From a virus: DNA of 64,000 bases. This document shows positions 12,831 to 31,245 of this stretch, piece by piece (position 1 is the stretch's first letter; every line of letters begins with the position of its first letter). The position numbers and the translations under genes are program-made. Below the pieces are notes generated by a model, which did not search any database, was not told the DNA's origin, and was given only the letters and a program-made list of their open reading frames with translations. The stretch is taken from IMG/VR virus record IMGVR_UViG_3300035070_003918, positions 1 to 64,000 of that record. The stretch is one strand, 5' to 3'.

Positions 12831-13417
12831 GGCCTCCACCACCGCTCCTCGGCGCGAACAAACTGGATGTCGTCGTCCGACGGCGTTCCGACGTCGTAGC
12901 CGAAGTCGTCGCCGGTCACGCTTCCGCTGGCACCACCACCGCCAGCCGTCGGCATGTGTCCGAGCGGGGTCCACCCATTGCGCTTTCGCTCCGCCCATCC
13001 GCGAGCTCGCGCCGCGTCGAGCCTCCCGTACTTCGCGAACCTCCTCCCGTCGTCGGTCCCCTTCTCCTCGTCCTTGTCGGCCATCCAGTCCTTCAGGTCG
13101 GCCAGGACCTCGAGATACTCCGGCGGGCACTCGCTCATGCGACACCCGGCGAAGCTCTCGCCCGTCCACCGCTTCGGGTCCTTCTTGACCGTCGGATCCC
13201 CGTACTGGCTGTCGAGGTCCCGCTCGCTCGCCACCTCGCCTCCGCCGCCGCGCTGGTTGCCACCAGGAGAGGCTTTCGCGCCTCCTGTGGTGCCATTGCC
13301 GCCAGAGACGCTACGCCCCGCACAGAGGGCCATCAGCATGCCCTCCATGCGCGACACCCTCTCGTCGATGCTCTTGAGGGTCTTGAGCACCTCCGCGTTG
13401 TACGAGTCCGGGCTCAC
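12827..13417 (-). CDS. Phage protein next to recT, 196 aa
   Basis: GTG at 13417 overlaps the recT stop (GTGA). N-terminal short coiled coil (LKTLKSIDERVSRMEGML), then a Gly-rich linker, then a conserved-looking block with GDPTVKKDPKRWTGESFAG, SECPPEYLEVLADLKDWMA and AARARGWAERKRNGW. Its position directly after recT, and the acidic DDDIQF near the C-terminus, suggest an ssDNA-handling helper, but no OB-fold motif is evident. Confidence 0.6.
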   Translation of the reverse strand: MSPDSYNAEVLKTLKSIDERVSRMEGMLMALCAGRSVSGGNGTTGGAKASPGGNQRGGGGEVASERDLDSQYGDPTVKKDPKRWTGESFAGCRMSECPPEYLEVLADLKDWMADKDEEKGTDDGRRFAKYGRLDAARARGWAERKRNGWTPLGHMPTAGGGGASGSVTGDDFGYDVGTPSDDDIQFVRAEERWWRP

Positions 13418-14286
13418 GACGCCGCCCCGTCCACCTTCGTCGCGAGGCGGTCCTTCATGGCTTCCGTACGCGTCGCCGGCGCGACGGGTTGGGCTTGCCC
13501 GCTCGTGTCCTCGACGACGTCGCCGACCACGTCGATCACGTCGGAGAAGTCCGGGGTCCCAGACTCTGCGGCGGCCTGGAGCTGCAACGCCTGCGCGAAG
13601 CGCTCCTCGCTGCACGGCAGGTACTTCCCGTGCCTCCTTACCACCGTCTTGCGTGCCATCTCCGCGTAGTCCGTCCTCCAGGGCCCGTCGTCCTTCGCCT
13701 TCGACCTGTCGCGGATCGCGTTGATCTCGCCGATCGACATCCACTCGAACGTTGTCGCCCCCGTCTTGAGCTTCGCCACCGAGTACACCCCGATCATCTC
13801 CCCGCGGTCCGCCTCCAGACTCGGCGAGTGGTCGATCCTCGGGTCCGTCCCCATGTGGATCTCGAAGGCGTCGCGCGAGTACACCACGCGGCTCTCGATG
13901 CTCTGCACCTCGCCCGACTGCACCGCGAGACGGATGAGACCGCGATACCCAGGGATGAGCTGGCACGTCCCCTTGAACGGCACCAAGTACGACAGCCCGA
14001 GCGGCGTGTTCGGCGGCAGCCCCAGCGCGCACGCTTGCGCCACCGACATCACGATCGACCCGGGGTCACACGCGATCAACTCCGGCGTCTTCGACACCGC
14101 GGCCATCACCGACCGCAGCATCACGTCCGGCTTGATGTGGCTCGGCAGCAGCGCGGCCCATGAGGGCCTCGCCTTCACGAGCAGGGCCTCGATGTTCTTC
14201 CTCTTGTCCGCCGCGCTCATCACGAGCGCCGTGTTGCGGTTGCCGTTGGTTCCGTTCGCCCGCTGCTGATTCTGATCGTTGCTCAC
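13414..14286 (-). CDS. recT: RecT-family single-strand annealing protein
   Basis: 290 aa from GTG with GAAGGAGAAGG upstream and a GTGA overlap. The RecT core is clear: LRSVMAAVSKTPELIACDPGS, SVAQACALGLPPNTPLGLSYLVPF, CQLIPGYRGLIRLA, and WRTDYAEMARKTVVRRHGKYLP. RecT anneals complementary ssDNA produced by a partner exonuclease, here the YqaJ-type gene immediately upstream. Together they form a phage homologous recombination module. Confidence 0.95.
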   Translation of the reverse strand: MSNDQNQQRANGTNGNRNTALVMSAADKRKNIEALLVKARPSWAALLPSHIKPDVMLRSVMAAVSKTPELIACDPGSIVMSVAQACALGLPPNTPLGLSYLVPFKGTCQLIPGYRGLIRLAVQSGEVQSIESRVVYSRDAFEIHMGTDPRIDHSPSLEADRGEMIGVYSVAKLKTGATTFEWMSIGEINAIRDRSKAKDDGPWRTDYAEMARKTVVRRHGKYLPCSEERFAQALQLQAAAESGTPDFSDVIDVVGDVVEDTSGQAQPVAPATRTEAMKDRLATKVDGAAS

Positions 14287-15152
14287 GCTGCCTTCTCCTT
14301 CCGAGGCGTCACGCGAAGCACGCGCGCCCCGGTCTTGTTTGCCTTCCACGTCGCCTTGCCCCACTCACCCTCGATGCCCTCGGCGTCGCCGATCAGCTCG
14401 CAGAGTTTGTTGCTGGCCAGGCCCTTCTCTCGCTCCCAGTTGTCGATCGCCTTGTCGGCCTCGAACCGACGCAGTGCCCACTCGGTGGCCTCCGCCGGCG
14501 CGGGCTTGAGCGGCGTCCGGTTGAAGCCGTACACCTCGCGCAACACTCGTCGCGCCGAGTCCGTGTGATCGATCGGCGGCGCCTCCTGCCTCTCCACCAG
14601 ACCCCAGAACGCCTCCGCGAGCTTCACCAGGTTCGCGTACAGCTCCGGCTCGAATCGCAACTCGTAGATGCGCTTCGGTCCTCCGTCGAGGAAGCACACC
14701 GCCACGTCGCACCGCTCCTCCTCGCACACGCCCATCTGCCACTGGCACTGGAGCATCACGTACGGCGGCACACCGTCCGCCTCGAGCTCGGACCAGTGAT
14801 GCTTCACACGCCACCCGACGGCCTTGATCTCCACGAGCCGAGCGTCAGCGTCCGGAGCGATCACGGTGTAGTCGGGGGACGCCACCGCGATCGGGCTCGT
14901 CTTCGCTCTCACGGTGCGCCCGTGCTTCCTCACCTGCCGCCCGGTGACCTCGCCGTACCATTGCGCGATTGGAGCCTCGAGCATGTTGCCAAGCCACACC
15001 GCGTCCTCGTTCACGCTCTCGTCCGATAGCCCGAGCTTCTTCAGCCACACGTCATGTGGCGTCCGGTAAGGGTGCTCGCCGACCACCGCAGCGATCTCCG
15101 AGCTTCCGATCCCCATCGATCGGATCGTGTGCTGGCGCGCCGTCAGAGACAC
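14283..15152 (-). CDS. YqaJ/lambda-type exonuclease
   Basis: 289 aa from GTG at 15152 (10-bp overlap with the upstream gene). IGSSEIAAVVGEHPYRTPHDVWLKK, GNMLEAPIAQWY, SPDYTVI, and the catalytic D ... LVEIKAV (ExK) with MLQCQWQM are the motifs of YqaJ viral recombinases. It is a 5'-3' dsDNA exonuclease that loads RecT, encoded next to it. The C-terminal ~90 residues are a helical extension. Confidence 0.93.
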   Translation of the reverse strand: MSLTARQHTIRSMGIGSSEIAAVVGEHPYRTPHDVWLKKLGLSDESVNEDAVWLGNMLEAPIAQWYGEVTGRQVRKHGRTVRAKTSPIAVASPDYTVIAPDADARLVEIKAVGWRVKHHWSELEADGVPPYVMLQCQWQMGVCEEERCDVAVCFLDGGPKRIYELRFEPELYANLVKLAEAFWGLVERQEAPPIDHTDSARRVLREVYGFNRTPLKPAPAEATEWALRRFEADKAIDNWEREKGLASNKLCELIGDAEGIEGEWGKATWKANKTGARVLRVTPRKEKAA

Positions 15153-15574
15153 GGGAACGCCTCGCTCCCGTACCCGTACACGGCCATCGTCTCGAGCGGC
15201 CGCGGTCGCCACGCGCTGGCCTCGTGAGCCATCGCGACCAGATCGGACGCAGCATCCTCCGACGTCCGATCGACACCGAGCGCGGTCATCGCCTCACCGA
15301 TCAAGTCGCGCTGCCGCTGCACGGTGGCTCTCGTGTTCGTGAGCGCCTCGCGCAGTGCCTGGATCTCGACCTCGGTGCTCATGGCCACGTCGAGCAGCAT
15401 CGAGACGAGCTGCTCGTGCCGCTCCAGGTCCTCGATGAGCCGCGCTGCCACTTCGGCCGGCGTACCCTCGGGGGCGCACACACTGATACCGAGCGCCGCG
15501 CACGTGGCATCGCGCTCGGCGACCAGGTCGCGGAGGAAGATGGTCGTCTCCTCGGCCACGGTGGGGGCGGCCAT
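15143..15574 (-). CDS. Helical protein, 143 aa
   Basis: ATG at 15574 with GGGGAGGG upstream; it shares one base with the end of the previous gene. Mostly alpha-helical with coiled-coil stretches (ARLIEDLERHEQLVSML, ALREALTNTRATVQRQRD). No recognised family. It precedes the exonuclease and may be part of the recombination unit. Confidence 0.5.
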   Translation of the reverse strand: MAAPTVAEETTIFLRDLVAERDATCAALGISVCAPEGTPAEVAARLIEDLERHEQLVSMLLDVAMSTEVEIQALREALTNTRATVQRQRDLIGEAMTALGVDRTSEDAASDLVAMAHEASAWRPRPLETMAVYGYGSEAFPCL

Positions 15575-17551: not shown

Positions 17552-17838
17552 CGCGCACCCCCAACAGCCACGCTCGCGACGAGCACGGCCGGCAGCACCG
17601 CGGCCTGACACGAGGCGCAGACGTGACGGCCAAAGCCGTGAGAGCACGTTCGGCACACCGAGCGCGCGTCGTCGCCCGCGGCCAACGCCTCGTCGATCGA
17701 GTCGTATGGCCCACCGACGTGCGACGGGTGCGCCTTCGCCCATCGCACAGACTCGGCCGCGCGAGGCGACGAGAAGATCGCCGTCCTGTTGTCGACCGCG
17801 ACCCAGTACCAGAATCGATCGGGCTTGCTCATGATCAC
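17548..17838 (-). CDS. Zinc-ribbon protein, 96 aa
   Basis: ATGA overlap with the upstream gene; a second in-frame ATG is at 17832. FWYWVAVDNRTAIFSSPRAA looks like a small beta domain; CRTCSHGFGRHVCASC is a clear pair of CxxC zinc knuckles. A hydrophobic C-terminus (AVLPAVLVASVAVG) could be a membrane segment. Confidence 0.55.
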   Translation of the reverse strand: MIMSKPDRFWYWVAVDNRTAIFSSPRAAESVRWAKAHPSHVGGPYDSIDEALAAGDDARSVCRTCSHGFGRHVCASCQAAVLPAVLVASVAVGGAR

Positions 17839-18218
17839 TCCGCCGCGACGGGCAGCGCCGTCGCCTCAAGGGCCTCACGCGAGAGCACGAACGCCGGCCG
17901 CTCATGCATCCGGCCGCGACCGCCGCACTCCTCGCAGGCATCGCAGCGCGAGCGCGGCGCGTAGCGGTTGCCGAGCTGGAGCTCGACCACGCCCTGGCCC
18001 CAGCACTCGGGGCACTCGCTCACCGTCTCGTAGGCCTCGCCGAGCGCCCGCACGATGCGTGCGACACCGGCGGTGTCCACGTCGCTCAGCGAACAGTCGA
18101 GGTAGTCGCGGCAGAAGTCCGCGACGAAGAGCGTGTCTTCGTCCGCCCACAGCTCCTCGCGGACGTAGTCGTTCGCGAGGGTCTGAAGCGCTGCAGGGAG
18201 TGCCGTCGTCGTGCTCAC
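17835..18218 (-). CDS. First gene of the leftward operon, zinc-binding protein
   Basis: About 127 aa from a GTG at 18218. The longer frame starting at 18263 begins upstream of the promoter and can be excluded. The -10 box ends at 18226, so the transcript would begin at or next to the GTG and have almost no leader. Acidic N-terminal half, then CPECWGQG and CDACEECGGRGR, like the zinc-binding repeats of DnaJ central domains. It may be an early regulator. Confidence 0.6.
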   Translation of the reverse strand: MSTTTALPAALQTLANDYVREELWADEDTLFVADFCRDYLDCSLSDVDTAGVARIVRALGEAYETVSECPECWGQGVVELQLGNRYAPRSRCDACEECGGRGRMHERPAFVLSREALEATALPVAAE

Positions 18219-18225
18219 GAGAGAC

Positions 18226-18254
18226 AAGGTAGCGCTAGCGCTAGCGCTAGTCAA
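18226..18254 (-). promoter_or_regulatory. Leftward early promoter (PL)
   Basis: On the minus strand TTGACT (18249-18254), a 17-bp spacer, and TACCTT (18226-18231): 5 of 6 at -35 and near consensus spacing. The whole spacer is filled by tandem TAGCGC repeats. It would drive the ~18-kb leftward operon down to the recombination genes and the type IV cluster. Confidence 0.7.
18230..18250. repeat. Operator: TAGCGC x3 tandem palindrome at PL
   Basis: Three perfect tandem TAGCGC units plus TAG (21 bp), each junction forming the palindrome TAGCGCTA. The array lies exactly between -35 and -10 of PL. A two-unit version lies in the rightward promoter at 20546-20560. It is the obvious binding site for a shared repressor. 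Confidence 0.75.
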
Positions 18255-18333
18255 CTTGCCCACGGACGATTTTCTGACCTGAGGCTTTTTGTCCTCATCC
18301 CCCTTACGTCACGTGCCGGTGCAGAATGCGGGC

Positions 18334-18927
18334 ATGGACCTCACGGGGGTGGGACTGGAGATGCTTCGCTTGGCCGGCGCGCCGCCATCGGTGGCACCCA
18401 ACGCCGCGCGCTTAGCCGCCGCGCTCGTCGGCCCCGACTGCCTGCGTCTCGTCGGTCATCTGCCCGACGGTGGAGACGTGGACGGAGACAGGATCGCGAT
18501 CTCCCGCGACAGCGCAGAGCGGATGAATTTCGCCGTGGCTCGGATGCTGGCTCGTCGCGAGCTTCGGCGCCGCGGAGCGTGGGACGATCAGTCGGAGCGG
18601 AGACTCGGGGCCTTCCTCGTCGCTCCAACCCCAGTTGTCGAGGCGGTGCTGTCTGTCGAGGGCGCAGACGTGCCCGAGCTCGCCTCCACGTGCGTCATCA
18701 CGCAGACGTGCGCGGCGATGCGCTTCGTCGAGGTCGGGGCTCTCGACGGCGCCGTCATCACCCCGCACCGCGTCTACCGGCCCGGGCGCCTGCTCCGCTG
18801 GGTCTCCGACGACCAGGCCCGTGCCATCGCGCGCTCGCGCCGGCAGCCGTCGGTGCGACGCGTCGCGATCACCGACGAGCCGGGCCGCGTGGCGCTCTTC
18901 AGCGCGTCTGTGCGACCGCCGACATGA
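18334..18927 (+). CDS. ImmA/IrrE-like protein with degenerate metal site
   Basis: 197 aa from ATG at 18334. The layout follows COG2856 (ImmA/IrrE): RIAISRDSAERMNFAVARMLARREL in the place of the usual RxxFTLAHELGH, then ERRLGAFLVAPTPVVEAVL, a short helix, CVITQTCAAMRFVEV and a C-terminal strand (VALFSAS). The HExxH is replaced by ARREL, so zinc protease activity should be lost. ImmA proteins cleave or sense phage repressors; here it lies alone on the + strand in the immunity region, opposite the repressor operon. Its 3' end overlaps the converging gene by 29 bp. Confidence 0.6.
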   Translation: MDLTGVGLEMLRLAGAPPSVAPNAARLAAALVGPDCLRLVGHLPDGGDVDGDRIAISRDSAERMNFAVARMLARRELRRRGAWDDQSERRLGAFLVAPTPVVEAVLSVEGADVPELASTCVITQTCAAMRFVEVGALDGAVITPHRVYRPGRLLRWVSDDQARAIARSRRQPSVRRVAITDEPGRVALFSASVRPPT

Positions 18928-19309
18928 TCGCCGCCGCCGCCGCGTCCGCCCACGCCTTGGCGCCCGGATTGCCGAGCACCACCTCACCACCGACGGTCGT
19001 CGCGACGACCTGGTGAACGCGACCGAACAACGACCCGAGCAGCACGAGCAGCGTGCACACGCCGACGAGCGACGCCATCCCGCCCACCATCATCACAGGC
19101 TCGGATCGCGCCACCATCGCCTCGTTTGCCACGCAGCTGCCGCCACCGGTCATGAGAAGCGCGAACAGCCAGGTGCCGACGCCGTACCGCATCTTCTCCA
19201 CGACCCGCACCCCGGTCACCGACGACAGCATCAGCGAAGCGCCATCGATCATGATCAGCGACGGGGTAATCGTGACGCGCTCTGCCTTGAAGAGAACCTC
19301 CTCAGTCAC
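18899..19309 (-). CDS. Membrane protein, 136 aa (lysogenic cargo)
   Basis: GTG at 19309 overlaps the lipoprotein stop (GTGA). Residues 1-45 form a small beta domain (FKAERVTITPSLIMIDGAS), then two hydrophobic helices (TWLFALLMTGG, MMVGGMASLVGVCTLLVLLGSL), and a C-terminal strand-helix (EVVLGNPGAKAWADAAAAAI). The pattern resembles DUF6232-type membrane proteins. Third gene of the repressor operon, so it should be made in lysogens. Confidence 0.6.
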   Translation of the reverse strand: MTEEVLFKAERVTITPSLIMIDGASLMLSSVTGVRVVEKMRYGVGTWLFALLMTGGGSCVANEAMVARSEPVMMVGGMASLVGVCTLLVLLGSLFGRVHQVVATTVGGEVVLGNPGAKAWADAAAAAIMSAVAQTR

Positions 19310-19920
19310 GGCTCGATCTCGACCGTGGCAGCGACGAACGAGCTCGCCGGGATCTCCGCCCCACCGATGATGGCGTTGGCCGTCGGCCCGATGTCGATGC
19401 AATCCGCCCCCGCCTTCGTGTACGTGGTGCCCGCGTACGGGCCCGCGACCGGGAACACGCGCACCGAGTCCCAACACGAGCCCGTCTGGGTCAGCAAGTG
19501 CGTTGGCAGCCCGCACGTGCCGTTGCTCGTGCCCACCGGGATCGTGCACGCCGCGTCGGCCCAGATCGTCGCGAACGCGTAGTTGACCGGCAGGCATCGC
19601 TGCTGGCCGTCGGACGCGCCACGCCACGCGCAGTCGATCCCGAGCTGCGAGTCGTAAAGCCCAGACGGAGTACGCGACCCGTCCGCGCCCACGAGCGTCT
19701 TGGCCTTGATCCGCTCCCCGCTCTCGAAGCCGCCGCCCGGGGTGCTCCCGCCGGTCGAGCTCGATCCGCCAGCATCCCCGCCGCCGGTCGCGCCCTCTCC
19801 GCCGTTCCCGCCCATCGAGTTCGCGGTGCTCGCCCCGGTTCCTCCGCTCGGGTCGGGCCCGATCTCGTCCGAGCAACCTGCCAGCACCACCACCAACCCC
19901 ACCATCGCCCAGCTCTTCAT
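19306..19920 (-). CDS. Secreted lipoprotein of Myxococcota type (lysogenic cargo)
   Basis: 204 aa with a signal peptide and lipobox (VVLAGC, Cys16), then a long Gly/Ser/Thr linker (~20-65) and a domain with paired cysteines: DCAWR, GQQRCLP, DAACTIPVG, NGTCGLP, GSCWDS, ADCIDIG. This linker plus DCxW...RCLP domain is common in lipoproteins of myxobacteria and their relatives. Co-transcribed with the repressor, so probably a lysogenic conversion gene exposed on the host outer membrane. Not a virion component. Confidence 0.75.
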   Translation of the reverse strand: MKSWAMVGLVVVLAGCSDEIGPDPSGGTGASTANSMGGNGGEGATGGGDAGGSSSTGGSTPGGGFESGERIKAKTLVGADGSRTPSGLYDSQLGIDCAWRGASDGQQRCLPVNYAFATIWADAACTIPVGTSNGTCGLPTHLLTQTGSCWDSVRVFPVAGPYAGTTYTKAGADCIDIGPTANAIIGGAEIPASSFVAATVEIEP

Positions 19921-20486
19921 CGCGCCCCTCGCCTCTTTCCTGGCTTCTTCGCAGCCGCACGCGCGGCCTTTGCCTCATCGATCACGCTCTCGATTGTCCT
20001 GGTGTCTCCGACCGGCTCCGGCTCCGTCGATGGCGGAGACCCCTGAGGAAGACCGATCAAGATCCGAAGCGCAAAGCTGGCAGCGTCGAAGAGGATCTCC
20101 TTGCTGATGCTCGTCGCTCCGACCGCGTCCAGCGCCCTCACGCCGGCCTCAAGCACGTGCTCAGGGAACCCGCGAGCCACCGCAGCGCGCGCGGCCTCGA
20201 AGCCGTCGAGCCGAGCCACGCGGGTGGTGGCGATCAACTCTCCGTCGAAGATCGCGGCCGGATCGTAGCCGCCGAGCGCTGCCAGTCGCACCACGCACCT
20301 CGGGCCAACCCCGTGCCGTCCGTTGACGAACTTCCCGAAGTTGGTCTCGTGCACCTCGCCGAGCTCGGCCGCGAGCGAGCGCTTCGTGCGCCCGTCCACG
20401 AGCAGACCAAGAGCCACCGTGCGCGCGGCGTCCACCACCTTGGCCGGAAGCTTGGTCTTCGGTTCCGAAGCCATCTCGCGAGACAT
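19917..20486 (-). CDS. Xre-family phage repressor candidate
   Basis: 189 aa from ATG 20486 (ATG 20474 also possible); the end overlaps the lipoprotein start as ATGA. An HTH is visible at ~35-62 (KRSLAAELGEVHETNFGKFVNG), followed by RHGVGPRCVVRLAALGGYDPAAIF. The C-terminal region is helical and Lys/Arg-rich at the end (KKPGKRRG). Divergent from the Cro-like gene with an 85-bp operator region between them, the usual cI/cro layout. No LexA-like Ser/Lys autoprotease motif is visible, so induction probably uses another route. Confidence 0.65.
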   Translation of the reverse strand: MSREMASEPKTKLPAKVVDAARTVALGLLVDGRTKRSLAAELGEVHETNFGKFVNGRHGVGPRCVVRLAALGGYDPAAIFDGELIATTRVARLDGFEAARAAVARGFPEHVLEAGVRALDAVGATSISKEILFDAASFALRILIGLPQGSPPSTEPEPVGDTRTIESVIDEAKAARAAAKKPGKRRGAR

Positions 20487-20513
20487 CCTACACCCCGTCT
20501 ACGTCGCTCCAGC

Positions 20514-20533
20514 GCGGGACAGCGGTGTCCCGC
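20514..20533. promoter_or_regulatory. Palindrome GCGGGACA-N4-TGTCCCGC between repressor and cro
   Basis: Perfect 8-bp inverted repeat with a 4-bp spacer, 28 bp upstream of the repressor start and just before the -35 of the rightward promoter. Its GGGACA/TGTCCC half-sites recur at 20566-20579. Probable operator for the repressor or Cro. Confidence 0.55.
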
Positions 20534-20535
20534 AC

Positions 20536-20563
20536 TTGACGCGACTAGCGCTAGCGCTAGTAT
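20536..20563 (+). promoter_or_regulatory. Rightward early promoter (PR)
   Basis: TTGACG (20536-20541), 16-bp spacer, TAGTAT (20558-20563). The spacer and -10 contain the tandem TAGCGC operator, as in PL. The start point would fall near 20570, beside the ATG at 20572. Confidence 0.6.
20546..20560. repeat. Operator: TAGCGC x2 tandem palindrome at PR
   Basis: Two tandem TAGCGC units plus TAG, identical in sequence to the three-unit array at PL and in the same place between -35 and -10. The shared site implies coordinated control of both early operons. Confidence 0.75.
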
Positions 20564-20565
20564 GG

Positions 20566-20579
20566 TGTCCCATGGGACA
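20566..20579. promoter_or_regulatory. Palindrome TGTCCC-AT-GGGACA over the transcript start
   Basis: Perfect 6-bp inverted repeat around the first ATG of the cro transcript. It is built from the same half-sites as 20514-20533 but in the opposite spacing order. A protein bound here would block initiation or translation. Confidence 0.5.
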
Positions 20580-20598
20580 GGTCACGAAGGGAGCGGCC

Positions 20599-20808
20599 AT
20601 GCTCGGCGCATGGCTGCTCAAGAATGAGCGCACCAACCGCTGGCTCGCCGAAGAACTCGGGGTCGCCGAGTCGCAGGTCGGCAGGTGGCTGAGCGGCATG
20701 TGGAGGCCGCGTCAAGAGACGCTGCTGGCCATCGAGTCGATCACCGGGATCCCGGCGTCCGCGTGGCTCGACGAGCGTAAGCCTCTCAGGACGAGACGGG
20801 CCGCGTGA
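20599..20808 (+). CDS. Cro-like small HTH protein
   Basis: 69 aa from ATG 20599, which has AAGGGAG 7 nt upstream; an in-frame ATG at 20572, on the transcript start, would give 78 aa by leaderless initiation. NRWLAEELGVAESQVGRWLSGM is a textbook Xre/Cro HTH, followed by RPRQETLLAIESITGIPASAW. First gene of the rightward operon and divergent from the repressor, hence Cro-like. Confidence 0.75.
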   Translation: MLGAWLLKNERTNRWLAEELGVAESQVGRWLSGMWRPRQETLLAIESITGIPASAWLDERKPLRTRRAA

Positions 20809-22514: not shown

Positions 22515-22577
22515 GCAGGTCATTGGCGTGGCACTTCGCGGCAGGGACGTGCTCGGCACGGATGGGCGTGGACCGGT

Positions 22578-22606
22578 TTGGCTTGGCGAGGCATGGACCC
22601 TTCAAT
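22578..22606 (+). promoter_or_regulatory. Possible internal promoter before the 22624 gene
   Basis: TTGGCT, 17-bp spacer, TTCAAT (4 of 6 each) in a 109-bp gap without a gene (22515-22623). It would start a transcript about 11 nt before the ATG at 22624, which has GGGAGAG as SD. Confidence 0.3.
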
Positions 22607-22623
22607 GGGCACTGGGAGAGACC

Positions 22624-23226
22624 ATGAAGATCATGAAGTTCAGGGTACGAATCGACAGCGAGCGACCCATCATCATCCAGAGCGATCGGCTGGTCGATCC
22701 ACTCGACCCGATGAGCATCGAGAAGAGGCGGCTAGCCAAGCACAAGGACAAGGCGAGCGAGGCCTTCCAGGCAGACATTGGCAGGATCGAGTGGTTCGGC
22801 GCGCTCTACCTGGACGACGACTGCAAGCCGAGGCTCGCGATCCCGTGCGACAACATCTTGCGCGCGATGCGCGACGCCGCTGCGCGAGAGAAGCTCGGTG
22901 AGACGGTGAAGCGCGAGGTCACCATCGATCCTCCGCTGATCGACTTCCTGGACCACGGTGGCCCAAAGGATCTCGAGGCGATGTATGCCGACCCGAGGTT
23001 CGTTCTGCGCAAGTCGGTCGCTCAGCAGAAGGCGCGCGTGATGCGCGTACGCCCGCGTCTGCCCGTGTGGGCGCTCGAGTTCACCATGACCGTCGGTGGC
23101 GCACAGACGCTGACCGCGGACGACGTGAAGCGGATCCTGACGAACGCCGGCATGGTTGGGATCGGCACGTGGCGACCTCGCTATGGTCACTTCAAGGTGA
23201 CCAAGTTTGAGAAGGCCAAGGACTAG
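22624..23226 (+). CDS. Conserved phage protein with RAMP/Cas7-like outline, 200 aa
   Basis: The N-terminus FRVRIDSERPIIIQSDRLVDPLD is followed by IEWFGALYLDDDCKPRLAIP, then CDNILRAMRDAAAREK, and a C-terminal GIGTWRPRYGHFKVTKFE. I recognise this as a widespread phage family of unknown function (usual form: TPLLMHNxRLADPLD ... GDWRPRYGRF). The order strand / P-x-x-x-(L)-R-x-A / glycine-rich basic loop resembles RAMP proteins, including Csf2 of this same genome. That similarity is an inference. Confidence 0.6.
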   Translation: MKIMKFRVRIDSERPIIIQSDRLVDPLDPMSIEKRRLAKHKDKASEAFQADIGRIEWFGALYLDDDCKPRLAIPCDNILRAMRDAAAREKLGETVKREVTIDPPLIDFLDHGGPKDLEAMYADPRFVLRKSVAQQKARVMRVRPRLPVWALEFTMTVGGAQTLTADDVKRILTNAGMVGIGTWRPRYGHFKVTKFEKAKD

Positions 23227-23239
23227 AAGTTTCGGCTCT

Positions 23240-23322
23240 GGGCTCGGCCGGGCGCGGCACGGCACGGCAGGGCGGGGCACGGAGCGGCCCGGCGGGGAGA
23301 GGCACAGCAAGGCAAGGCAAGG
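23240..23322. repeat. Low-complexity GGCAC/GGCAAGG repeat in intergenic gap
   Basis: The 123-bp gap 23227-23349 is mostly short purine-rich repeats (GGCACGGCACGGCAGGGC, then GGCAAGGCAAGG). No gene or clear terminator. Biased strand composition could favour R-loops or serve as a recombination or packaging hot spot; no direct evidence. Confidence 0.5.
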
Positions 23323-23349
23323 TCCCTTTCTACAGGGAAGGTTTCGCGA

Positions 23350-24755: not shown

Positions 24756-25114
24756 TGCCGCCGCTCGACCGGGTCTGGGACGACGCCGACATGGCTCAGG
24801 CGATCCATCACGTCGCGCGCGAAGGATGGCGCGGCCCATCCTCGGCGCTGCTGTCTCGCATCACGGGGTGGTCCGAGGAGGACGCTGCGCTCGAGCTCGA
24901 GCAGGAGGACCCCACCGAGAGGGTGTGCGCGTTCCTCTCGCTACTCGCGGTCCACTGCCACCCGGACGCGCCGCTGATGCGCGTGACGCCCAAGCTCATC
25001 GCCGAGCTGACGGGGTGGCACCACGTCCGCGTCGAGCGCGCGCTCGTGGAGGCCGTGAGCCGAGGGCGCCGCGCGCTGTTTAGGATGGTGCCTGCCGAGG
25101 GGAGGCCCGCGTGA
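24752..25114 (+). CDS. HTH-like 120-aa protein
   Basis: ATG overlapping the previous stop. Two tandem helical repeats that look like HTH units: ALLSRITGWSEEDAALELE and KLIAELTGWHHVRVERALVEA. Each has the (I)TGW turn, so the protein may be an internally duplicated winged helix. Confidence 0.5.
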   Translation: MMPPLDRVWDDADMAQAIHHVAREGWRGPSSALLSRITGWSEEDAALELEQEDPTERVCAFLSLLAVHCHPDAPLMRVTPKLIAELTGWHHVRVERALVEAVSRGRRALFRMVPAEGRPA

Positions 25115-25698
25115 GCGCCGCATTCGACCTGGTCGCGTCGGCGCCAACGCCGCAGCGCGTGGAGCGCGCAGAGCTCGACTACTACCCAACGCCTGCGTGG
25201 TGCGTGGATGCGATCAAGCCGTTCCTATGTCCCGGGCGCTCAGTGCTCGACCCGGCCTGCGGGCAGGGGGAGTTGCTGATTCACTTCGGGGTGTCCGGCG
25301 AGACATCGCTGCTCGGCATTGAGCTGGACGGTTTGCGAGCCCTCGCGGCTGAGCGCATCGCCACCCAGCGCGTCATCGAAGCAGACGCCCTCGCCGTTGA
25401 CTGGCCCAAGGTCGACCTCGTGATCTGCAACCCGCCCTTCTCGCTCTCGCTCGAGTTCGTCGAGAAGTCTCTCCAGCAGCAGCTGCCTCACACGACGCAC
25501 GCCTTCCTGCTGCGGCTGTCGTTCCTCGAGTCGCGCGAGCGACGCGCGCTTCACAAGCTGCATCCGAGCGACGTCTACGTCCTCTCCGAGCGGCCGAAGT
25601 TCAGGCCCAACCGTCACGGCAAGATGGCCACCGACTCGATCACATGCGCGTGGTTCGTGTGGGGTCCTGGGCGCGGCGGAAGGTGGAGCGTCCTGTGA
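25111..25698 (+). CDS. N6-adenine DNA methyltransferase, phage type
   Basis: 195 aa. YYPTPAWCVDAIKPFL, motif I VLDPACGQGELL and motif IV ICNPPFS (an NPPF catalytic loop) with a later KMATDSITCAWFVW strand. The lack of a target-recognition domain and the small size are usual for phage orphan methylases that protect DNA or mark it for regulation. Coupled by GTGA on both sides. Confidence 0.85.
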   Translation: MSAAFDLVASAPTPQRVERAELDYYPTPAWCVDAIKPFLCPGRSVLDPACGQGELLIHFGVSGETSLLGIELDGLRALAAERIATQRVIEADALAVDWPKVDLVICNPPFSLSLEFVEKSLQQQLPHTTHAFLLRLSFLESRERRALHKLHPSDVYVLSERPKFRPNRHGKMATDSITCAWFVWGPGRGGRWSVL

Positions 25699-29401: not shown

Positions 29402-29451
29402 CCGTCGTTACGAGGGCGCTGCGGGTTCGAGACGAGGAGAAGGTGGCGTGA
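29398..29451 (+). CDS. 17-codon mini-ORF between coupled genes
   Basis: ATG in an ATGA overlap with the previous stop and ending in a GTGA overlap with the next start (peptide MTVVTRALRVRDEEKVA). It exactly fills the gap and lets ribosomes pass from gene to gene; the peptide itself may have no role. Confidence 0.4.
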   Translation: MTVVTRALRVRDEEKVA

Positions 29452-30371
29452 GCTGGACGAGCCTCGACGACAAATGGGACGTCGGATCCAAGCTGCTGCG
29501 CGCGGCGGAGATCCTCAAGAGCGACGCGGCGCACGCCATGTGGGTGCGCGGCATCACGCACTGCAACCGCGAGAACACCGACGGGCGCATCTACGGGGCC
29601 GTCCTCCGCTCGAAGACGTACCACCGCAAGCCGCAGGCCGTCGTCGACGCCCTGGTCAAGGTCGGGGCCCTCCTCCACCTCGGCGGCGACGAGTACGCGT
29701 TCCACGACTTCCTCGAGTGGAACGACTCGAAGGAGGAGGTCGAAGCAAAGCGGAAGCGGAAGCAGGAAAGCGGGCGTAGAGGCGGTCAGCAGAGCGGGCT
29801 GTCCAGGACCAAGCAAACCGGAAGCAAGACCGAAGCAGGTGCTTCGGATTATGGAAGCAAAAACGAAGCAGGTGCTTCGCGCTTGCTTGGGTCTAGCTTC
29901 GCGTTTGGTTCGCCGGGTGCGAACACCTCTCCTCTCCATACCTCTCCATCAGAGATCTCTCCTGAAACGGGATCCCTGCCGCCGCCCTCTGAGAGATCGC
30001 GCGCGCCCGAGGCGGCGGCGGCGGCGGCGCCGAATCCGGCGGTGGCCCAGGTTCTCGATGCGCTGAGCCGAGAAAAGCCGCTTCGCGGCGTAGCGACCAC
30101 GGCTTTTGCGCAGGATTTGGCCCGATTCTGCAACGAACACGGGTTCACCGGACCCCGAACGCTGGAGGCCACGCTGACGTCGATCGGCGAGGCATCGGCG
30201 AAGGTGAGTCAGGCTGAGAACATCGGAGAACCATTGGGCAATCGGCAGATCGCCGCGCTGGTCCACGGGTGCGTTCGGACGGGTCCTCGGGGCTCGACCG
30301 GCGCCACTGCGGGCAGGCACCGGCAACCCGGGCTTGGGCACTACGAACAGACGAACGCGGAGGACGTATGA
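29448..30371 (+). CDS. Phage replication initiator (lambda O-like)
   Basis: 307 aa from GTG. Residues 1-95 form a winged-helix domain (KLLRAAEILKSDAAHAMWV, AVVDALVKVGALLHLGG, YAFHDFLEWNDSKEEVEAKR), the usual N-terminus of phage replisome organisers. The middle is low complexity and carries GSKTEAGAS / GSKNEAGAS repeats encoded by iteron-like DNA. A C-terminal helical domain (AQDLARFCNEHG, LEATLTSIGEASAKV) would recruit the loader. A DnaC-like ATPase lies two genes on, giving the O-P order of lambda. Confidence 0.75.
   Translation: MSWTSLDDKWDVGSKLLRAAEILKSDAAHAMWVRGITHCNRENTDGRIYGAVLRSKTYHRKPQAVVDALVKVGALLHLGGDEYAFHDFLEWNDSKEEVEAKRKRKQESGRRGGQQSGLSRTKQTGSKTEAGASDYGSKNEAGASRLLGSSFAFGSPGANTSPLHTSPSEISPETGSLPPPSERSRAPEAAAAAAPNPAVAQVLDALSREKPLRGVATTAFAQDLARFCNEHGFTGPRTLEATLTSIGEASAKVSQAENIGEPLGNRQIAALVHGCVRTGPRGSTGATAGRHRQPGLGHYEQTNAEDV
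29741..29892. other. Candidate replication origin with palindromic iterons inside the initiator gene
   Basis: Two 27-bp direct repeats (29820-29846 and 29853-29879, two mismatches, 33-bp period), each ending in the perfect 16-bp palindrome CGAAGCAGGTGCTTCG. Further GAAGC units lie at 29741-29765 and 29810-29820, and an inverted TTGCTT at 29884-29889. Clustered iterons within the initiator's own gene match the lambda ori arrangement. Confidence 0.55.
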
Positions 30372-30505
30372 CCGACGGACGACAGCAGGAACCCATCGCC
30401 AGCCCGCACAGGATTGGCTCAGGCGCGCTTTTGGTACCCGACACGGGGGTCGGGTCGTCCGTGGTTACGTCGACGCGTCCTGGGGCAAATGCGGAGGTCG
30501 CATGA
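30368..30505 (+). CDS. Hypothetical 45-aa protein
   Basis: ATGA overlap with the initiator stop and ATGA overlap with the next start, so it bridges the two genes. No motif; Gly/Ser/Pro-rich. Confidence 0.4.
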   Translation: MTDGRQQEPIASPHRIGSGALLVPDTGVGSSVVTSTRPGANAEVA

Positions 30506-31245
30506 CCGGGCCCAAGTACAGCGAATCCGTGGTCGACCTGGCGACGGTGATCGAGAGGGCTCAGCGAGCCGCCGGCGCGGTGGCGTCGAGCCTGGACGAG
30601 TCGGCGAGGGCCGAGGGCGAGCGGTCCACGGCGGCACGCGATGAGGCGAGGCAGCAGGCGGCGTCGGCACGCCGCGCGGCTCAGCGGGAGGCGTCGCTCG
30701 AGACGATCCCTGTCCGGCTTCGGTGGGCTCGGCTCGGCGGCCAGTGGCCCGAGGCGGTCGACGCGAAGGCCGTCTCCGCGCTCGAGGTCATGGGCGCAGG
30801 CCAGGGGCGAGGGGCGAACCCGCTCCTGACGCTGCACGGGCCTCCTGGGTCCGGCAAGACCTCCGCCGCGGTGGCGGTGATGCGGTCCAGGCTCGAGGCG
30901 GCCAAGCTGCCCCTGGGTCTGTTCGTGACGGCGAGCGACCTCGTCACGGCGACGAAGGCGACCCCGCTAGGGCAGGCGGTCGAGCTCGTGGAGCGAGCCA
31001 AGACGATCCCGGCCCTGGTGCTGGACGACGTGGGCCAGGAGCCGAGCGGGGAGTGGAACCGGGTCGTGGTCGAGGTTCTCCACGAGCGGCACGCCCAGCA
31101 GCGCTGGACCGTGGTCACGACCTACTACGACGTCAGCGCGGGCTCGAAGGACATCACCACGATGGAGGCCCGGTACGGCGGAGGGCTTGTCCGTCGCGTG
31201 GCCGAGTGCCGTCACGTGGCCTTCCGGGTGAGGGGGAAGCGATGA
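30502..31245 (+). CDS. DnaC-like helicase loader ATPase
   Basis: 247 aa. Coiled N-terminus (~10-65), Walker A GPPGSGKT (113-120), Walker B ALVLDDVG (171-178), sensor-like WTVVTTYYD and arginine-finger region VRRVAECRHVAFRV: an AAA+ loader of the DnaC/IstB type. It would deliver the host DnaB helicase to the origin recognised by the upstream initiator. Confidence 0.85.
   Translation: MTGPKYSESVVDLATVIERAQRAAGAVASSLDESARAEGERSTAARDEARQQAASARRAAQREASLETIPVRLRWARLGGQWPEAVDAKAVSALEVMGAGQGRGANPLLTLHGPPGSGKTSAAVAVMRSRLEAAKLPLGLFVTASDLVTATKATPLGQAVELVERAKTIPALVLDDVGQEPSGEWNRVVVEVLHERHAQQRWTVVTTYYDVSAGSKDITTMEARYGGGLVRRVAECRHVAFRVRGKR

Follow-up and report, generated by a model that had tools for sequence, protein, structure and literature searches.

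We have identified identical operator-like sites in the two divergent early promoters, PL and PR, of a phage, placed as if for one protein to occlude both; in this respect an earlier, model-made reading of the letters alone (the sequence-only reading) was sustained. The sites are probably OL/OR-type operators of a lambda-like immunity region, read by one phage helix-turn-helix (HTH) dimer that would block RNA polymerase at both promoters, with the product of the divergent gene at 19917-20486 as the likeliest binder. Protein binding, the direction of its effect and the identity of the binder are what we infer from the DNA. The window, i.e. the whole stretch that was analysed, has 64,000 nt (GC 68%) and makes up most of a 65,461-bp IMG/VR record. 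Its features are listed in Table 1.

Table 1. Features of the putative immunity region and the early operons (window coordinates)
Feature	Position	Strand	Details
RecT-like annealing protein and RecE/YqaJ-like exonuclease, PL operon	13414-15212	-	PHROG matches
First PL gene, small protein with DnaJ-type zinc motif	17835-18218	-	GTG start 7 nt past -10
PL promoter (putative)	18226-18254	-	TTGACT (18254-18249), 17-nt spacer, TACCTT (18231-18226); third of 127,936 positions
PL operator array	18230-18249	.	TAGCGC x3 + TA, 20 bp; two overlapping TAGCGC-N2-GCGCTA dyads, 18230-18243 and 18236-18249
DUF6232 protein	18899-19309	-	overlaps DUF7481 gene end to end
DUF7481 protein	19306-19920	-	lipoprotein-like N-terminus; overlaps repressor gene end to end
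Candidate prophage repressor	19917-20486	-	189 aa; ATG 20486 or 20474; N-terminal Xre-like fold (predicted)
Second dyad, GCGGGACA-N4-TGTCCCGC	20514-20533	.	just 5' of PR -35; unique in window
PR promoter (putative)	20536-20563	+	TTGACG (20536-20541), 16-nt spacer, TAGTAT (20558-20563); best of 127,936 positions
PR operator	20546-20559	.	TAGCGC x2 + TA = TAGCGC-TA-GCGCTA, 14 bp
Candidate repressor promoter (PRM)	20559-20587	-	TCGTGA-17-CATACT; rank 117 of 127,936; weak, putative
Second dyad, TGTCCCATGGGACA	20566-20579	.	over cro start, inside spacer of candidate repressor promoter
Cro-like HTH_3 protein, first PR gene	20572-20808	+	Pfam HTH_3, E 1.1e-5, above cut-off; PDB 3bs3, E 5.8e-7
GGY/NN guide-like arrays	22525-22599 and 23241-23325		flank Vipr gene; whole VIPR locus 22525-23325
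Vipr-like protein	22624-23226		match to SUSP1 Vipr of PDB 36pp, E 8.6e-18
Replication initiator and IstB/DnaC-type ATPase	29448-31245	+	

The count given in the sequence-only reading, three TAGCGC units at PL and two at PR, was borne out, and the PR site was found to extend to an 18-bp perfect palindrome, ACTAGCGCTAGCGCTAGT (20544-20561). The sequence TAGCGCTA occurs five times in the window, always at the PL and PR arrays, against 0.18 occurrences expected. A genome-wide search, which the same reading had proposed as a check, revealed no site in the contig outside the two loci; even with one mismatch allowed, the 14-mer has no further copy in the whole 65,461-bp record. The two loci, ∼2.3 kb apart, have in common the exact 18-mer GACTAGCGCTAGCGCTAG, for which only 0.07 matches would be expected even at three mismatches. 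This 18-mer lies on opposite strands at PL and PR, i.e. in the same orientation relative to each transcription unit.

Promoters were sought with a sigma70 matrix at every position of both strands, the arrays being ignored. The matrix consisted of approximate textbook frequencies, corrected for base composition, and may not fit the sigma factor of the host; PL and PR are therefore described as putative. PR is the sole consensus match within the 17.5-21.8 kb region. When the arrays were inserted at random elsewhere, the score of PR was matched in 4 of 4000 trials and that of PL in 14 of 4000. Since the sites are unique, identical and situated at the first- and third-ranked promoters, which is unlikely to occur by chance, we read them as an operator shared by both transcription units.

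Both arrays fill the spacer, as had been claimed, yet they are not confined 'exactly' between -35 and -10: each array ends in a TA that also opens the -10 element, and the first T of the PL array (read along the transcript) is the last base of the PL -35. The gap from the -10 element to the start codon is 7 nt at PL (GTG 18218) and 8 nt at PR (ATG 20572; an alternative start of the Cro-like gene, ATG 20599, has AAGGGAG upstream). Given such short gaps, the PL and PR messages may therefore be leaderless.

The arrays could in principle be no more than a hexanucleotide microsatellite, possibly phase-variable, that lies in a promoter spacer and is bound by no protein. The copy number of the unit does differ (three versus two), and one unit more or less would disrupt the 16-17 nt spacing. 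We consider this reading highly improbable given two independent loci with an exact shared 18-mer, spacers kept at 16-17 nt by compensating flanks despite the differing array length, and copies in other phages that vary at the dyad centre and thus are not tandem repeats. Two more interpretations of the arrays were rejected. For a cruciform or hairpin, the DNA fold z-scores of two array fragments were only -1.1 and -1.7. Under a MerR-type reading, PR would have TATGGT after a 19-nt spacer; PL is not compatible with this scheme, and there was no MerR-family match among the scanned proteins.

The genes around the two promoters follow the lambda plan, in the order recombination, repressor operon, cro-like gene and replication. 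Leftward from PL lie genes for the zinc-motif protein, a DUF4942 protein, the RecE/YqaJ-like exonuclease and RecT; rightward from PR lie the Cro-like gene, small genes, a VIPR locus and genes for an SF2 helicase, the replication initiator and the IstB/DnaC-type ATPase. The DUF7481 and DUF6232 genes (18899-19920) stand behind the repressor gene, in the position of rexA/rexB in lambda; a role in lysogenic conversion or exclusion is possible. No match to tyrosine or serine recombinases (PF00589, PF00239) was found in the contig, which is cut at its right end. We thus speak of lysogeny as inferred. That the host belongs to Myxococcota is a guess made from the relatives of RecT. The phage also carries PAPS-reductase-like (740-1459) and N6-adenine methyltransferase-like (25111-25698) proteins.

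The candidate repressor has no homologues among viral contigs, GTDB contigs, phages, plasmids, PDB sequences or 379 Myxococcota genomes. It has no Pfam match either, such as would mark a LexA-like C-terminal domain, and its full-length structural model (pLDDT 41.5) was discarded for its low quality. Its N-terminal 86 residues were modelled as a five-helix domain (single-sequence AlphaFold, pLDDT 73.8). Among the matches listed, this fold mostly resembles Xre-type proteins (ComR, HigA, C.AhdI, ClgR and lambda CI, at E-values of 0.06 or higher), which is suggestive of an Xre-like HTH fold in the model. BLASTP detected no sequence similarity between the candidate repressor and the Cro-like protein. 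The lambda-like gene order, the Cro-like HTH protein and the Xre-like fold of the repressor are further reasons for reading the sites as shared operators. Against this explanation stand the lack of recognizable relatives of the repressor, the weak E-value of its fold match, the presence of one dyad only at PR and the integrase not found in the contig.

In the switch we propose, one phage-encoded HTH dimer, most likely the divergent repressor, would bind TAGCGC-N2-GCGCTA, which is present once at PR and, in overlapping copies, twice at PL. Seated in the -35/-10 spacer, the dimer would block RNA polymerase at PL and PR, so that the recombination operon and the cro/replication operon would be silenced together. 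The Cro-like protein may bind the TAGCGC site, or else a second family of dyads, with TGTCCC half-sites, which flank PR and overlap the candidate repressor promoter.

Four TGTCCC half-sites, out of 17 in the window, fall within 64 bp at PR; their dyads are absent from PL. The candidate repressor promoter and PR overlap at their -10 elements, and each of these two divergent promoters may contain an operator of a different kind. (TGTCYC dyads were also looked for at each of the three start codons; they were no more frequent than expected by chance and were dismissed.) Judged by the DNA, the TGTCCC dyads would be an equally plausible target of the repressor. The two families could thus divide the labour, with TAGCGC dyads serving one regulator and TGTCCC dyads the other, e.g. 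Cro on TAGCGC and the repressor on TGTCCC. Such a division has in its favour the two dyad families at PR, the position of TGTCCCATGGGACA in the candidate repressor promoter and the precedent of phage PY54, in which Cro has one binding site, upstream of cI, CI binds different sequences and messages are leaderless (PMC4488713). We nevertheless regard it as rather unlikely: a repressor acting on TGTCCC only would leave PL free, as PL has the TAGCGC dyad only, and the candidate repressor promoter is weak.

The window phage resembles PY54 in having few operators, perhaps with different sites for each regulator, in messages that may be leaderless and in a repressor promoter close to the cro 5' end. 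It differs in that PY54 is a telomere phage and that here the identical site is also present at the second early promoter.

In phages lambda, P22 and 434 an immunity region has OL/OR operators in both early promoters, and the lambda-type logic has been known for decades. The likeness to lambda-type phages lies in the same operator within divergent early promoters that flank the repressor operon ∼2.3 kb apart; in a cro-like gene behind PR, with recombination to the left and replication to the right as read from gene content; and in the divergent HTH genes, of which the Cro-like one is clear while the repressor is recognized by its predicted N-terminal fold only. Unlike lambda, with three spaced operators at each promoter, the window phage has a single dyad at PR and an overlapping pair at PL. 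No further copies were found here, and three spaced operators are not universal in the group, as PY54 illustrates. The operator of the window phage lies in the spacer, extra unrelated dyads occur at PR only, the repressor is devoid of recognizable relatives, and no integrase gene was found in the truncated contig.

To compare the arrangement with that of other phages, we scanned 145 RecT-bearing phage loci for a word common to divergent top promoters. The window, with its 18 bp, exceeded all of them. Next came a prophage in a Nitrosomonas MAG (L204:1960-4515), whose two divergent promoters, 2.5 kb from each other, both carry the 16-bp palindrome ATTACCATTTGGTAAT in the spacer. As in the window, an Xre-like gene lies between the promoters and YqaJ/RecT genes are near, and we regard this prophage as a clear independent analogue; its operator sequence is unrelated, and each -35 is overlapped by a further, imperfect copy.

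The sequence-only reading had described the sites as tandem overlapping palindromes with no spacer. PL does hold two overlapping copies; still, the recognition unit is probably not a tandem hexamer but an inverted repeat of 14 bp, TAGCGC-N2-GCGCTA, whose two central bases vary. We prefer the inverted repeat because the PR site is a single 18-bp palindrome and because half-sites elsewhere are constant while the centres vary (AC, GT, AA, TC and CC, as against TA here); the TA centre, from which the tandem appearance arises, would be incidental. The sites had also been called unusual for Xre-type repressors; on the present reading this objection would fall away, as an inverted repeat would be an ordinary target of an Xre-fold dimer.

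Near-copies were collected through the 14-mer, which gave 99 IMG/VR stretches, mostly with chance contexts. Besides the selecting 14-mer, these stretches contain three exact dyads, versus 0-2 in Markov nulls; this count alone is weak, and the weight is carried by two phages, G384 and G385, and by the promoter context in a third, L062. G384 (58,974 bp; L295-L297) and G385 (26,867 bp; L298-L299) are related, with portal proteins 94% identical, and have 8 and 4 dyad sites (at most one mismatch), respectively, versus none in 20 shuffles of each. Most of these dyads are followed directly by a -10-like element and a start codon, and four are at syntenic places. The half-sites and the location in the -35 to -10 region are the same as in the window; in contrast to the window, the sites are dispersed and overlap the -35 of the promoter-like sequences (T[AT]GCGC). 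Several of them adjoin a second dyad, TGCCA-N6-TGGCA.

In L062 there are two dyads (7148 and 8231), with centres TA and CC/GG and identical promoter contexts, TTGAAA-15-TATACT. They have the same half-sites as the window phage, lie in the spacer as well and keep the same register to the -10 element. A small protein encoded beside one of them resembles ribbon-helix-helix proteins on visual inspection; having no Pfam match and no relative in the window, it was discarded as a common binder. A second dyad in L072 was not counted as a promoter site, being located inside coding sequence. Together with the Nitrosomonas analogue, the same dyad in the promoter contexts of L062 and G384/G385 is a further reason for the shared-operator reading.

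No regulator common to the window phage and the G384, G385 and L062 phages was detected. That the dyad nevertheless recurs in their promoters would fit a host-encoded regulator that reads TAGCGC-N2-GCGCTA and couples the early promoters to the state of the host. Such a regulator seems improbable to us, as the 17-mer around the dyad (at most one mismatch) occurs in just four of the 379 Myxococcota genomes, at places that are not promoter-like; the searched genomes, though, may not be those of the host. In one Myxococcota genome (G313, contig C624:2072-2108, L268) two CTAGCGCTAGCGCTAG palindromes 19 bp apart, unrelated to PL/PR, may be terminator hairpins where a gene ends. As for literature on TAGCGC operators, the searched text matched only in primers.

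The 'type IV module' that the sequence-only reading had put under lysogeny control is actually a VIPR system, as follows from the PDB 36pp match and the guide arrays. Vipr is the RAMP of VIPR systems, GGY/NN repeats typify their vrRNAs, and the guides follow a one-base-skip rule (PMC13142463). Both constituents, the Vipr protein and the GGY/NN tandem-repeat guide array, were found at the sequence level. The locus lies 2 kb downstream of PR, and read-through from PR into it is possible because no plus-strand terminator-like site lies between. Control of the VIPR locus from PR is therefore possible but uncertain, since the locus has its own promoter-like sequence (rank 4), which overlaps the upstream guide.

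The proximity of this locus raises the question of whether the phage directs its own VIPR guides at the arrays, whose 6-bp period would suit a one-base-skip code. We give this next to no credence: the two guides decoded by the rule matched no place in the window, PL and PR included, better than shuffled sequence.

Extending the proposed operator beyond this phage, one could suppose that TAGCGC-N2-GCGCTA is a recurrent operator in unrelated phages of GC-rich bacteria (the window phage, L062 and G384/G385), read by one unrecognised class of regulators, phage- or host-encoded, and that here this regulator gates both early operons together with an inter-phage weapon, VIPR. We put this forward as a speculation that is, on balance, unlikely to hold.

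The arrangement itself is the textbook OL/OR one, already known; what is new is the phage, together with its particular operator sequence. The analysis yields a defined operator sequence and a switch open to experimental test, in a phage that has no close relatives in the searched collections, and it places a VIPR locus downstream of a lytic promoter. One dyad recurring in promoters of unrelated phages may lead to a regulator specificity not yet described.
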